Below, one piece after another: positions 59,924-64,000 of a stretch of DNA of 64,000 bases. The notes beneath the pieces were generated by a model, which saw nothing but the letters and a program-made list of their open reading frames with translations, did no database searches and was not told the DNA's origin. The position numbers and the translations under genes are program-made. Position 1 is the stretch's first letter. Each line of letters begins with the position of its first letter. Origin of the DNA: Sphingobacteriia bacterium (GTDB lineage: Bacteria; Bacteroidota; Bacteroidia; Bacteroidales; UBA7960). The stretch lies in the NCBI GenBank assembly GCA_011390785.1, contig JAABRR010000003.1, forward strand, positions 62,001 through 126,000. Direction: 5' to 3'.

Positions 59924-60616
59924 TTATCCTTTTCTGGCAATCTCTTCCAAATTATTACGATTGATTATTTCGAGTTTATTTCCCTCGATATTGATGATGT
60001 TATCATCCTTAAATTTTTTTAGCACACGGATGAGACTTTCTTTGGTCATACCTGATAAATCGGCCAAATCCTGCCTTGTTAGGCTAAGTAAGAAAGGATT
60101 GGTGTTGTAAATACCTGGATAAAGGTAAAGAAGGGTGTCTGCTACCCGTCCATAAACATGCTTTTGGGTACAGCTCGAAATCCGGTTGAATAAACTAACT
60201 GATTGGAGACTGATTTTTTTTATAAATTCATTCGCAAATTCGGTATTGGTTTTTATCAATTGTTTCATCACCTTCTCATCTATAAGACAGGCAGATGTTT
60301 CTTCGCAGGCAACTGCAGTTACATGATGATGGTGATCAACAAATGGGCCGGGCTCAAAAATATAATTGATAGGGCGTGTAAGACCAACAATTAAATTACG
60401 GCTGTTAACATGCTCTATATATAGTTTTACCAAGCCACTTGTTACGCAAACAAAATAATTTGCCGGTGCCCCCTGTTTAAAAATAATCTCTCCTGGTTTA
60501 TAAATGATGCTGGCTTTATTGCAATCTATCTTTTCAAGCTCACTTTCCTTTAAAACGTTGAAAATATCTGATGATTTTTTGCAAACCAAACATTTGGTGT
60601 CAAGTAAAACTGCCAT
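59924..60616 (-). CDS. FNR-type Crp/Fnr transcriptional regulator
   Basis: A 230-residue regulator with an N-terminal cysteine group (CLVCKK, C9 and C12, and C32), a cNMP-like beta roll (IIYKPGEIIFKQGAPANYFVCV), the dimer helix and a winged helix with recognition segment LADLSGMTKESLIRVLKKF. The cysteines suggest an oxygen- or NO-sensitive Fe-S cluster as in FNR, though the spacing differs from E. coli FNR. The E-x3-R of the recognition helix fits FNR-like half-sites TTGAT. It is divergent from the cytochrome cluster, and two such palindromes lie between them, so it is the probable regulator. Confidence 0.9.
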   Translation of the reverse strand: MAVLLDTKCLVCKKSSDIFNVLKESELEKIDCNKASIIYKPGEIIFKQGAPANYFVCVTSGLVKLYIEHVNSRNLIVGLTRPINYIFEPGPFVDHHHHVTAVACEETSACLIDEKVMKQLIKTNTEFANEFIKKISLQSVSLFNRISSCTQKHVYGRVADTLLYLYPGIYNTNPFLLSLTRQDLADLSGMTKESLIRVLKKFKDDNIINIEGNKLEIINRNNLEEIARKG

Positions 60617-60645
60617 GTAAAATAATTATTAAGATATTGTAGTAA

Positions 60646-60653
60646 CAAATGTA
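60646..60653 (-). promoter_or_regulatory. Candidate -7 element (TACATTTG) of the FNR-type gene
   Basis: Full TAnnTTTG match on the minus strand, 29 bp before the ATG at 60616. Confidence 0.45.
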
Positions 60654-60816
60654 GCCAAAAATTAAATCGGATGAAAAGATTTAGGCATTTTGTTACTTAA
60701 TTGCCTTTCCTGATTTGAATCTGATTTTTTAAATAATTCAAGGTGTAAATTATACGATTAATTCAAATCGAAATAATTGTTGTGGTTTCAATGTTTTCTG
60801 TTTTCTTTTTTCTGCG

Positions 60817-60830
60817 TTGATATATATCAA
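60817..60830. promoter_or_regulatory. Perfect FNR box TTGAT-N4-ATCAA
   Basis: TTGATATATATCAA is an exact match to the FNR consensus TTGAT-N4-ATCAA. It lies 200 bp before the FNR-type gene start and 266 bp before the cytochrome gene start, in the region they share. Confidence 0.65.
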
Positions 60831-60859
60831 TCAAAAGGCAGCTTAGAAACAACCAATGG

Positions 60860-60873
60860 TTGATTCATGTCAA
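60860..60873. promoter_or_regulatory. Near-perfect second FNR box TTGAT-N4-GTCAA
   Basis: TTGATTCATGTCAA differs from the FNR consensus at one base. Its centre is 43 bp (about four helical turns) from that of the perfect box, so both would lie on the same face of the helix. Confidence 0.5.
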
Positions 60874-61096
60874 TAAAAACATGATTAGAATCATTCATCA
60901 TCAGGGTGAATATCAGTCTCTGAAGCAGTGCTATTAAAGAATTTTTTCTTTGTTTTGTATATGTCTTATAAAGCTTGATTTATTACTTCTTAGTTTGAAA
61001 ATTTTCCTGAAAGATGAAGAGTATTTTTAAAAATGCTTATTAAAAAAGACCTAAATAAATTACAGAAAATCAAGAACCCAACAAATACTGATTATA

Positions 61097-61492
61097 ATGA
61101 AAATAACACAATATCGAAATAAATTAATTGGTAAACTTATCTCTGCTTTTATGGTAGCCTTTATTTTTATAGGGTGTGAATATGAAACCATAGAGTTTGA
61201 TTTACCCGATGAAAATGAGCCCGTAAGTTTTGCGGCAGATATTCTACCTATATTTAATAACGGGAATAATTGTACGGCATGTCATACTGCCGGATCAACT
61301 TCGCCAGATTTAACAACAGACCGTGCATATAATTCCATTGTACCAGCGCTTATAAATACCGATGAACCTGAGATGAGCAGGATTTATGAATTTCCCCATC
61401 CCTCATCAACAACACACGGTTTTAAAAAGTATACACAAGCTCAGGCCGCTCTGGTGCTTAACTGGATTAAACAAGGTGCTGAAAATAATTAA
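61097..61492 (+). CDS. Monohaem c-type cytochrome lipoprotein
   Basis: A 131-residue lipoprotein (lipobox IFIGC after a hydrophobic segment) with one haem-attachment site NCTACHTAG near residue 57. The segment VSFAADILPIFNNG before it is typical of small Bacteroidota cytochromes whose domain begins with an AxILPIF motif. Axial Met candidates include EPEMSRIY. It probably carries electrons in the periplasm or at the outer-membrane inner face. First gene of the cytochrome cluster; the barrel-like gene follows after 21 bp. Confidence 0.85.
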   Translation: MKITQYRNKLIGKLISAFMVAFIFIGCEYETIEFDLPDENEPVSFAADILPIFNNGNNCTACHTAGSTSPDLTTDRAYNSIVPALINTDEPEMSRIYEFPHPSSTTHGFKKYTQAQAALVLNWIKQGAENN

Positions 61493-61513
61493 CGAAAAAA
61501 ATATTAATTCGAT

Positions 61514-62383
61514 ATGAAACGAGCTTTCCTAATCTGGAGTATTTTATTACCCATTAGTTTTATGATTTACGGGCAGGACGAAGAACAGCCAAAAGATCTT
61601 CCCGTAAGAAGTCCTTTTGCCAGTGGCATTTTAATAGATAACCAAACCACAGTTATTTCCACTCCGGGTACCATGGAGTATTTTATTCAACATAAGTTTG
61701 GTAAGATGAATAATGGTATTTCTGATGTTTTTGGCATTTATGCTCCCGGAGCCAATATTCGCATGGCGCTTACCTATGTGCCGGTAAAAAACCTGCAGGT
61801 GGGTTATGGTCTCAGCCGCATCAATATGTATAGCGATTTTTCAGTAAAATATACTTTACTTGAACAAACACGCAAAAACACAATTCCTGTTGCCGTAGCA
61901 TTATATGGCAATATGGCTATTGACAGCCGTGAAGATGAAGCTTTTGGAAAAAATTACCAATTTACTAACCGTCTGTCTTATTTCTCTCAAATTATAATAG
62001 GCCGCAAATTTAACTATTGGCTATCCTTGCAGGCCAATGCAAGTTTTACCCATTACAACATTACCGAAGACCTTATAGATCATGATAAAATTTCGGTAGG
62101 TTTGAATGGCAGGGTAAATCTTTCACCCCGCTCGTCAATTATCTTTCAGTATGATATGCCTTTAAAAATAAAACAGATTACCGAATATCGTGAGTTTACC
62201 AACCCCGCAAAACCCAATATAGGATTGGGTTGGGAAATACGAACCAGCACACATGCTTTTAATATTTATATGTCGTCAACTGACGCCATGTTACCGCAAC
62301 ATACAGCAATGTTTAACCAAAATGATTTTACCAATGGCGATTTAATGTTTGGCTTTACCATTACCCGATTATGGAGCTTATAA
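61514..62383 (+). CDS. DUF5777-type beta-barrel protein
   Basis: A 289-residue exported protein: signal peptide (KRAFLIWSILLPISFMIYGQ), then a long barrel-like sequence with alternating strands and motifs IDNQTTVISTPGTMEYFIQHKFG and GIYAPGANIRMALTYVPVKNLQVGYG. Its ending, GDLMFGFTITRLWSL, fits the DUF5777 barrel family that is often found beside cytochrome c and YceI genes in Bacteroidota. Function is not known; an outer-membrane partner of the electron-transfer proteins is inferred from position. Lies 21 bp after the first cytochrome gene. Confidence 0.75.
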   Translation: MKRAFLIWSILLPISFMIYGQDEEQPKDLPVRSPFASGILIDNQTTVISTPGTMEYFIQHKFGKMNNGISDVFGIYAPGANIRMALTYVPVKNLQVGYGLSRINMYSDFSVKYTLLEQTRKNTIPVAVALYGNMAIDSREDEAFGKNYQFTNRLSYFSQIIIGRKFNYWLSLQANASFTHYNITEDLIDHDKISVGLNGRVNLSPRSSIIFQYDMPLKIKQITEYREFTNPAKPNIGLGWEIRTSTHAFNIYMSSTDAMLPQHTAMFNQNDFTNGDLMFGFTITRLWSL

Positions 62384-62446
62384 AACATCTAATTATAACT
62401 CAATTAACTTAGAAATAACCGATTGTTTCATTAAATATTTACTACT

Positions 62447-62863
62447 ATGAAAAATTCAATAATTATAACTCTGATGATGGCTTTCCTGGCAATTGTATTG
62501 ATTTCTTTTACACCTCTACAGGAAAAGAAAAAAGGAGGCCCCTGGCAAATACCTGCAGAATATAAGGCAAAGAAAAACCCACATGCTGATGATGAAGCCC
62601 TTGTAAGACTTGGACGAGCAGGTTATGGTCGTCATTGCAGATCATGCCACGGTAGAACCGGCCTGGGAGATGGGCCTATGGCCGCTCAACTGGAAACGGA
62701 TGCTGGTGATTTATCAGATGCAACCTGGCAGGCAAAATTCAACGATGGCGAACTATATTACATGTCATTTATAGGCCGAGATGAGATGCCCAATTTTGAA
62801 GATAAAATTACCGACGAGGAAGAAAGATGGGCTATTATCAACTTTATAAGAAGTTTAAAATAA
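62447..62863 (+). CDS. Monohaem c-type cytochrome (class I-like)
   Basis: A 138-residue exported protein with a signal peptide (KNSIIITLMMAFLAIVLIS) and a cytochrome c domain: haem site GRHCRSCHGRTGLGDGPMA near residue 63, and a likely axial Met in RDEMPNFEDKI. The C-terminal helix EERWAIINFIRSL is the usual closing helix of class I cytochromes. It is 63 bp after the barrel gene and 84 bp before the multihaem gene, in the same direction, so it likely shuttles electrons within this module. Confidence 0.9.
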   Translation: MKNSIIITLMMAFLAIVLISFTPLQEKKKGGPWQIPAEYKAKKNPHADDEALVRLGRAGYGRHCRSCHGRTGLGDGPMAAQLETDAGDLSDATWQAKFNDGELYYMSFIGRDEMPNFEDKITDEEERWAIINFIRSLK

Positions 62864-62947
62864 AAGGGATCGATCATTATCATGTTTTAAATACAGGTAA
62901 CCAGCCTGAAGAAAAGATTCCTTTAATAATTGTCAAAAATTGTTGTT

Positions 62948-64000
62948 ATGACAAAGTCTCAGATAAAAAAAACATCCAACCTAGTAAGATGGGGCATTCC
63001 TCTATTGCCTCTCTTTATAGCCTGGATGATTTCGGGTGCGGCAGCTGATAATATTGATACCAATGCCGATCTGGATGCTGAACGTGCAGCTGAGCTGGTT
63101 CCCGATGATGATGCTCTGGCTTGTCTCGAGTGCCATAGCAACCTGAGATACGATCTGGAAGACCCGTTTACCGGTGACATGGTTTCCATGAAAATGTATG
63201 AAGAACTGCGCATTGATCCTCATACTTATGCCAGTTCAACCCATGGGCATTTTACCTGCATTGATTGCCATTCAATGGATTATGAAATGCATCCACACCC
63301 TATTGAAGCCAAATTTGACTTTCAATATACCTGCCTGGATTGCCATGGTGCCGGCGAACAGTTTGCTGAATTTAATTTTGAAACCATCGAAAATGAATTT
63401 CAGGCAAGTGTACATGGAGATCATCTAATACCCAATTTTAGCTGCTGGAGCTGCCATAACCCACATACCTACAAATTGACCACCCGTGAGGGAGGTAGTA
63501 TTGTTGATATTGTAGCACATAACAATGCAATGTGTCTTGAATGTCATGGAGATATCAGTCACTATGAAGTGTTGATAGAGCGACAGCTTACCAATATGCT
63601 GTCAAAGCACAACTGGCTACCCAACCAAAGCCTTCACTTCAGAAAAGTAAGATGTATTGACTGCCATGCGCAGGTAAATGACGACATTCTCGTTGCCCAC
63701 CACGTGCTCCCGGCAGAAGGAGCTGTTAAAAACTGTGTTGATTGCCATTCTACCAATTCCATTCTTATGGCATCATTATATAAGCACCAGGTGCAGGAAA
63801 GAAGAAGCAGGTTTGGCTTCTTTAATCCATCGATCACCACTGATGCCTATATTATCGGGGCCAATCGCAACTACTATTTCAATGTAATAAGCATAGTGAT
63901 TTTTGGCCTGGTTTTGTTGGGTATTGCTATTCATGCCACATTAAGGTTTTTAAATAATAGAAAGAAGCGAAATGAACCGAGCCATGATAAAAATTTTAAC
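62948..64000 (+). CDS. Multihaem c-type cytochrome with C-terminal membrane helix (partial)
   Basis: The frame from ATG 62948 stays open for 351 codons to the window edge. It has an N-terminal hydrophobic segment (WGIPLLPLFIAWMISGAAA) and seven C-x2-C-H haem sites in order: CLECH, CIDCH, CLDCH, CWSCH, CLECH, CIDCH, CVDCH. Distal His candidates occur in STHGHF, SVHGDH and NPHTYK. After the seventh haem comes a membrane helix (YFNVISIVIFGLVLLGIAIHA) and a basic tail, so it is anchored with the haems in the periplasm. This resembles quinol-oxidising or electron-distributing multihaem cytochromes; no active-site CXXCK is present. The end, and possibly a cytochrome b partner, lie beyond the window. 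Confidence 0.9.
   Translation, partial: MTKSQIKKTSNLVRWGIPLLPLFIAWMISGAAADNIDTNADLDAERAAELVPDDDALACLECHSNLRYDLEDPFTGDMVSMKMYEELRIDPHTYASSTHGHFTCIDCHSMDYEMHPHPIEAKFDFQYTCLDCHGAGEQFAEFNFETIENEFQASVHGDHLIPNFSCWSCHNPHTYKLTTREGGSIVDIVAHNNAMCLECHGDISHYEVLIERQLTNMLSKHNWLPNQSLHFRKVRCIDCHAQVNDDILVAHHVLPAEGAVKNCVDCHSTNSILMASLYKHQVQERRSRFGFFNPSITTDAYIIGANRNYYFNVISIVIFGLVLLGIAIHATLRFLNNRKKRNEPSHDKNFN

Follow-up and report, generated by a model that had tools for sequence, protein, structure and literature searches.

What does a gene set that couples an FNR-like regulator to a row of c-type cytochromes do in a Bacteroidales genome, and where would its electrons go? The question is raised by the right-hand end of a 64,000-nucleotide stretch, here called the window, from the 4.82 Mb genome of a Sphingobacteriia bacterium (order Bacteroidales; assembly GCA_011390785.1, contig JAABRR010000003.1, hereafter C97, positions 62001-126000). 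A reading made from the sequence alone had suggested that this place may encode an uncharacterised route for electrons, respiratory or extracellular and under the control of oxygen. Extension past the window's edge and comparison with relatives lend support to that proposal through a cytochrome b, a hexahaem lipoprotein (MHC6) and conserved regulator boxes, from which we infer both the oxygen control and the extracellular function.

The reading that we consider most likely, and hold with moderate confidence, is that of a module for extracellular electron transfer (EET) that oxidises quinol and is under anaerobic control. Without oxygen, the regulator would hold an iron-sulphur cluster through C9, C12, C110 and a non-cysteine ligand, dimerise, and bind a row of TTGAT-N4-ATCAA sites spaced by about 22 bp on the same face of the DNA. 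Once bound, it would activate the operon on the divergent side and probably also the gene that encodes it. A PhsC-like cytochrome b and a membrane-anchored seven-haem cytochrome would then work as a split, CbcL-like pair that takes electrons from menaquinol at the inner membrane, and a monohaem cytochrome (monoC) would ferry the electrons through the periplasm. A monohaem lipoprotein (lipoC) and a DUF5777 barrel would form or serve the outer-membrane crossing to MHC6, a lipoprotein of predicted OcwA fold, which would pass the electrons on to an acceptor outside the cell, be it Fe(III), Mn(IV), humics, an electrode or a partner cell.

One regulator and six divergent genes

The unit, followed along the contig past the window, consists of one regulator and six genes. 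The Crp/FNR-type regulator (230 aa) occupies 59924-60616 on the minus strand and faces a plus-strand run of lipoC (61097-61492, 131 aa, haem motif CTACH), the DUF5777 outer-membrane β-barrel (61514-62383, 289 aa, Pfam 240.6 bits), monoC (62447-62863, 138 aa, haem motif CRSCH) and the seven-haem cytochrome c, which carries a C-terminal hydrophobic stretch. The last of these starts at 62948, an ATG picked by eye (the mechanical call is a TTG at 62930), and ends at 64018 (C97:126018), 18 bp past the window's edge. Beyond the window follow, in the direction of the operon, the cytochrome b (C97:126187-126876, 229 aa, PF01292 78.7 bits) and MHC6 (C97:126897-127928, 343 aa); the gene after MHC6, reading the contig rightward, lies on the opposite strand. 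The edge cuts the seven-haem gene and two further genes lie beyond it, so that the window holds only part of the gene set; the six cytochrome-side genes probably share one transcript. The sequence-only reading had recognised the regulator with its N-terminal cysteines (C9 and C12) and all four cytochrome-side genes of the window, and it had expected partner genes to the right, where the cytochrome b and MHC6 are indeed located. Its statement that the set has no recognisable terminal reductase holds for the window only, with MHC6, a putative one, lying beyond the edge.

The association of these genes extends across the order. A protein search of 59 genomes, the source genome included, found the seven-haem protein in that genome, in 0/34 relatives from its genus or family and in 7/24 genomes from other families of the order. 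By profile search it is present in 81/393 genomes of the order, again with its own, and in a phylum sample of 296 genomes four besides its own match, one of them at nearly full length (five candidates were scored per genome in the former search, seven in the latter). MHC6 occurs in 68 of the 81 genomes with the seven-haem protein vs 24 of the 312 without it, counts that are not corrected for kinship. From a scan of named genomes we took the best 80 of 436 stretches encoding seven-haem relatives; these loci are mostly titled Bacteroidales or Bacteroidetes, with one Chlorobiota, and include Labilibaculum and Marinifilum isolates. Family matches are found for cytochrome b in at least 76 of the 80 loci, DUF5777 in 74, lipoC in 69, monoC in 64, FNR in 59 and MHC6 in 55, and further for a NapC-like six-haem protein in 24, an Fe-S protein in 24 and NrfD in 22; all are lower bounds because some contigs are short. 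The gene-order comparison that the sequence-only reading had suggested mostly yields an FNR gene facing lipoC-DUF5777-(monoC)-seven-haem-cytochrome b, with MHC6 often last or first.

Horizontal acquisition, suggested by the absence from the 34 genus and family relatives, is not claimed, the GC content being unremarkable (38.1% in the cluster, 38.4% in the window). To the right of the window, a chimaeric open reading frame (ORF) (L016:14630-15436, corresponding to C97:134630-135436) joins a beta-lactamase-type N-terminal part (PF00144) to a C-terminal PfkB kinase end (PF00294), which is almost a repeat of the end of a kinase gene located some 4 kb farther along (L017:2-481).

From the quinol side to the proposed terminal cytochrome

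At the inner membrane, the nearest NCBIfam model of the cytochrome b is PhsC (154.1 bits, cut-off 204), and the seven-haem protein matches NrfH weakly (39.2 bits, cut-off 134.2). Together the two look like a split CbcL. CbcL contains nine haems and a HydC/FdnI-like b cytochrome within one protein, and the CbcL/MtoC/MtrH quinol oxidases of Geobacter and others, of which five homologues are reported in Bacteroidetes, likewise combine a multihaem c part with a HydC/FdnI-type cytochrome b (PMC6295460). The likeness is one of layout and not of compared sequences, and unlike CbcL, whose c domain is fused to the HydC-like cytochrome b, the present pair (seven haems; PhsC-like b) is encoded by adjacent but separate genes. 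Judged by this analogy, it may work like CbcL without being a member of that family. A fused form adjoins the operon at L042:9366-12167, a 19-haem protein with a cytochrome b domain recognised by Pfam, hence of CbcL-like layout. Very large 19-haem cytochromes, identified by BLAST label and haem count, also lie near the operon in L074, L081, L086, L100 and L116, where a cytochrome b fusion is indicated by the best BLAST match, and proteins of 14 to 23 haems occur close by at other loci. At about a quarter of the loci the cytochrome b is followed by an Fe-S protein, NrfD and a protein of about 297 aa with no Pfam match, a possible second quinone module (e.g. L036, L060, L062, L064, L068, L077, L105 and L113).

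The other end of the proposed chain is MHC6. Its structural model is that of the homologue in L044, 62% identical to the protein of the window organism, built from 48 relatives with a pLDDT of 90.6. A Foldseek search against the PDB has OcwA of Thermincola potens as its top match (E 6.9e-6), followed by the undecahaem cytochrome from the S-layer of Carboxydothermus ferrireducens (E 0.012). VIA-align superposes the model on OcwA residues 279-525 with a Z of 15.3 (228 residues, 3.6 Å) and on the undecahaem protein with a Z of 14.1, closely followed by NrfA and the octahaem nitrite reductases (ONR) at 12.6-13.9. The family profile ranks in the same way, with OcwA at 1e-16 and NrfA/ONR at about 1e-12, while the window organism's own MHC6 finds no PDB match with phmmer at E 0.01, so that OcwA is reached only by family profile and fold. 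As the Z-scores of OcwA and of the nitrite reductases are close, the predicted fold is assigned to the NrfA superfamily as a whole, with OcwA ahead by a small margin.

In the alignment of 48 of the 56 MHC6 proteins, six haem motifs are aligned in every row, 27 proteins having six CX2CH and 21 having five together with one of the CX4CH type. The lipid cysteine, H68, H117, H181, H232 and H322 are invariant (48/48) and H208 is kept in 46/48. Position 182, beside the invariant H181, is H in 28 and Y in 19 of the 48, and the two positions may correspond to the His-His pair of OcwA (His380-His381). The CxxCK motif of the catalytic haem of NrfA is present in 0/56 MHC6 proteins. MHC6 thus has the NrfA-superfamily fold, the C-terminal helix bundle and the lack of a CxxCK haem that mark the OcwA type, with six haem motifs in place of nine haems, two of which have open distal sites under a His-His pair.

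OcwA is surface-exposed and a proposed terminal reductase with iron-reducing activity (PMC6703420, PMC7829351); it has two open haems without a CxxCK motif and slowly reduces nitrite (PMC6703420). OmhA of C. ferrireducens is reported to be a surface cytochrome most abundant on ferrihydrite (PMC7829351), and PDB entry 6qvm is presumably this protein. The best fold matches of MHC6 are, in other words, surface multihaem cytochromes of iron reducers. They differ from it in their nine and eleven haems, of which MHC6 has six, and in that MHC6 matches the C-terminal part of OcwA only, is a lipoprotein of a diderm phylum and has a collagen-like spacer. In the favoured reading, MHC6 would sit at the cell surface.

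The strongest competing explanation is a periplasmic chain for a soluble acceptor, in which MHC6 would be an NrfA-superfamily enzyme that receives electrons from the cytochrome b and the seven-haem protein and acts on nitrite, hydroxylamine, a sulphur oxyanion or similar, with the barrel as an ordinary substrate pore. The NrfA/ONR fold likeness, the weak NrfH score, the PhsC-like cytochrome b, the resemblance of DUF5777 to small channels such as OmpG and NanC and the slow nitrite reduction by OcwA itself (PMC6703420) all speak for it. Against these stand the lack of CxxCK in MHC6, its invariant lipid cysteine and its two best fold matches, the latter by their small margin; furthermore, Labilibaculum manganireducens and L. 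filiforme, which carry the operon, already possess NrfA, and they reportedly fail to reduce nitrite when glucose is present (PMC5760507). We therefore regard this chain as unlikely, though a serious contender to be kept in view.

For the outer-membrane crossing, the operon offers a single barrel. DUF5777 is modelled with 12 strands (pLDDT 90.2; alignment of the window's protein with 55 of 75 others), and Foldseek returns general barrels and small channels (FapF, OmpG, NanC), so that a function drawn from these matches was rejected as giving no clue. Like the porin-cytochrome (Mtr/Pcc) complexes MtrABC and OmbB-OmaB-OmcB, the operon holds a barrel gene, cytochromes and a multihaem lipoprotein; unlike them, its one barrel has 12 predicted strands and monohaem cytochrome neighbours. 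Cyc2 offers an analogy, one haem with one barrel (PMC6344600), but as a single fusion where here there are two proteins, a comparison made by description that does not establish homology. A putative EET cluster of the anode population Bacteroidetes_1 also combines a barrel with cytochromes in the same phylum, but has seven genes, six of them multihaem, and is compared by description and not by sequence (PMC8258643). The haem motif of lipoC is kept throughout, as CX2CH in 49/70 and CX4CH in 21/70 proteins.

A switch between CX4CH and CX2CH within orthologous families is seen both in lipoC (21/70) and in MHC6 (21/48; e.g. L048, L049, L053), at some of the same loci in both. In L060, L062, L064 and L066 a second DUF5777 gene lies left of the operon near small or lipoC-like cytochrome genes, suggesting that the barrel and the monohaem lipoprotein may be a portable pair.

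The regulator and the direction of electron flow

The regulator contains a cNMP-binding-like domain (PF00027, 57.1 bits) and a Crp-type helix-turn-helix (PF13545, 56.1 bits), and is 21% identical to E. coli FNR. Its C9, C12 and C110, which align with FNR C20, C23 and C122, are invariant in 63/63 alignment rows, and D94 is kept in 60/63 (the rows, like the regions of the weight-matrix test below, include the window and count three contigs twice, G039=L059, G048=L083 and G047=L115, leaving 60 distinct). The position equivalent to C29 is D17 in the window's protein and mostly D, P, N or E across the rows. With three of the four cysteine ligands, the protein is called FNR-like and not FNR; its scores also fall below the NCBIfam cut-offs for Fnr (44.3 bits, cut-off 228) and FnrL (46.7 bits, cut-off 300). 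It shares with E. coli FNR the fold domains, three cluster cysteines and the TTGAT-N4-ATCAA sequence at target promoters, and differs in its low identity, the missing C29 equivalent and the phasing of its boxes by about 22 bp. By its sequence, the protein is likely an iron-sulphur oxygen sensor.

The same operon and the same palindrome would also fit a regulator that responds to nitric oxide, as DNR does, or to another redox signal. FNR and DNR have the TTGAT-N4-ATCAA motif in common. DNR is the regulator's second-best PDB sequence match, the best (2gau) carrying a family name only, and the missing C29 equivalent points the same way; yet the three FNR cysteines are conserved in every row and D94 in nearly all. 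The cluster of B. subtilis Fnr is, moreover, held by three Cys and one Asp, at other positions (PMC3520743). A signal other than oxygen accordingly seems to us improbable, if a little less readily dismissed than a reversal of the electron flow.

Such a reversal would make the operon a device for electron uptake, with Fe(II), sulphide, electrodes or syntrophic cells as the source, or for interspecies exchange. Known EET pathways can be bidirectional (PMC8258643) and the 80 loci are for the most part from genomes of uncultured organisms, both of which leave room for it, whereas FNR-type control suits the use of an anaerobic acceptor and the cultured carriers behave as electron donors. L. filiforme 59.16B (L102) and L. 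manganireducens 59.10-2M (L122) possess the operon and a full MHC6. They are the two cultured carriers whose physiology has been published, and both ferment and pass electrons to Fe(III) (PMC5760507). All four isolates of that study reduce Fe(III), and 59.10-2M also reduces Mn(IV); for these activities the paper suggests a ferric reductase or NrfHA as candidate gene systems (PMC5760507). We consider inward flow or exchange between partners quite unlikely. The genomes of both strains also hold a true NrfA and other multihaem proteins, so that the link between operon and Fe(III) is a correlation in two strains.

The box array and the meaning of the operon

The FNR box of E. coli is TTGAT-N4-ATCAA. 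Between the regulator gene and lipoC, a pattern search finds an exact copy (box 1, TTGATATATATCAA, 60817-60830) and one with a single mismatch (box 2, TTGATTCATGTCAA, 60860-60873), as described from the sequence alone, at 43 bp from start to start, or 2 x 21.5 bp. The one-mismatch pattern has 15 matches in the window vs 7.07 expected, a number reached by 2/100 shuffles, which taken within the window is weak evidence. Genome-wide there are 19 exact sites vs 4 for the reversed control; 14 of the 18 others fall within mechanically called ORFs, so that these counts are no proof of function, and a genome-wide regulon drawn from exact boxes was dropped for the same reason. It is the conservation of the palindrome across homologous promoters that supports a function where the genome counts fail.

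We enumerated all palindromes with 5-base arms and spacers of 0-8 in 56 of 64 FNR neighbourhoods, namely those adjoining lipoC or MHC6 with a gap >60 bp. TTGAT-N4-ATCAA ranks first, in 15/56 regions; ATTGA-N6 (15) and TGATA-N2 (14) are frame shifts of the same site, and the next palindrome reaches 6. With 4-base arms, TGAT-N4-ATCA is found in 28/56. At the same loci, boxes with ≤1 mismatch have a density of 2.2/kb in the FNR/cluster intergenic regions vs 0.32/kb in intergenic DNA elsewhere and 0.09/kb in coding sequence, a seven-fold enrichment over the other intergenic DNA; the reversed control occurs 0, 3 and 22 times, respectively. A weight matrix trained on 20 exact sites from the very regions tested places 51/63 regions above the 95% null, 20 of them with exact training sites, and a second site above it in 12/63. 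The loss of the palindromes in relatives with the same cluster had been named in advance as grounds for abandoning the proposal; they are conserved, though degenerate at many loci.

The boxes are also phased. Among 38 of 54 regions with a box of ≤2 mismatches and intact TGA/TCA, thinned to 30 non-redundant, the second similarity is highest exactly 22 bp to either side of the main box, with a mean of 4.33/10 positions each, vs a maximum of 4.2 in 300 flank rotations. ATCA half-sites recur at -22 (6), +21 (9) and +44 (8) vs a mean of 0.45 per offset, and the window's 43-bp pair fits two steps of this register. The natural reading of the spacing is a row of sites along one helix face. The remaining flanks show only single A/T columns above 60%. 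The box centre lies 105-150 bp before the operon's called start codon in 25/38 regions, the window being an outlier at 273. On the FNR-gene side, TAnnTTTG, the Bacteroidota -7 element, stands 30-39 bp from the box in 9/38 regions, with six at 33 bp from one related group (L060-L071).

FNR-type boxes are also seen before cytochrome genes of relatives that have no adjacent FNR gene (e.g. L035:11756), with 16 boxes of ≤1 mismatch in 179 such regions vs 2 for the control, hinting at a small regulon.

It is hardly credible that the palindromes arise by chance or coding composition and have no function, an explanation largely refuted by their conservation: the slight window-wide enrichment, the position of most other exact sites inside ORFs and the many homologous regions with two- or three-mismatch versions only would suit it, but the top rank in homologous promoters, the local enrichment with zero control matches and a 22-bp phasing above every rotation do not.

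Several observations weigh against an anaerobically controlled EET module. On the regulatory side, only versions with two or three mismatches occur at L049-L056, several of them titled Lentimicrobium, and at most Labilibaculum/Marinifilum loci, among them those of the cultured iron reducers (two in L102, three in L122). On the operon side, where it was sought at class II distance, TAnnTTTG lies within 60 bp of the box in 0/38 regions, and the regulator lacks the fourth cysteine of FNR. On the side of the cytochromes, no MHC6 match at E 1e-30 is found in 13/81 seven-haem genomes (five candidates scored in each), and in L102 MHC6 is encoded on the opposite strand, >6 kb past the operon. The nitrite-reductase folds follow OcwA closely, both Labilibaculum genomes also carry NrfA and further multihaem proteins, and a barrel of 12 predicted strands would be small for a multihaem plug.

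A bolder proposal is a new trans-outer-membrane route, in which lipoC (CX2CH/CX4CH) and the 12-strand DUF5777 barrel would form a two-piece conduit to the OcwA-fold hexahaem surface lipoprotein, the whole being controlled by an FNR-like regulator with three cysteines that binds a helically phased array, and serving as a general Bacteroidales metal and humic reducer. We regard it as speculative and, taken in full, rather doubtful.

In the literature searched, which did not extend to subscription papers, we found no description of the operon, its regulator or its boxes, and DUF5777 is named nowhere; an exact-term search for FNR-type boxes of Bacteroidetes gave no paper, while a looser one does match papers. 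The available part of PMC7399161 yielded nothing on the cluster, and putative porin-cytochrome genes of Bacteroidetes have been noted in humic lakes (PMC6344600).

The locus raises the question of how electrons would pass the outer membrane when the operon's only barrel has 12 predicted strands, and it links a cytochrome operon of Bacteroidetes with a classical FNR-type box. For Labilibaculum, whose strains can be grown in culture, it provides a conserved candidate for Fe(III) and Mn(IV) reduction that includes a regulator, a quinol-side module and a putative terminal cytochrome. For the Bacteroidales as a whole, it is a testable candidate for metal reduction, whose marker gene is present in about one fifth of the sampled genomes of the order.

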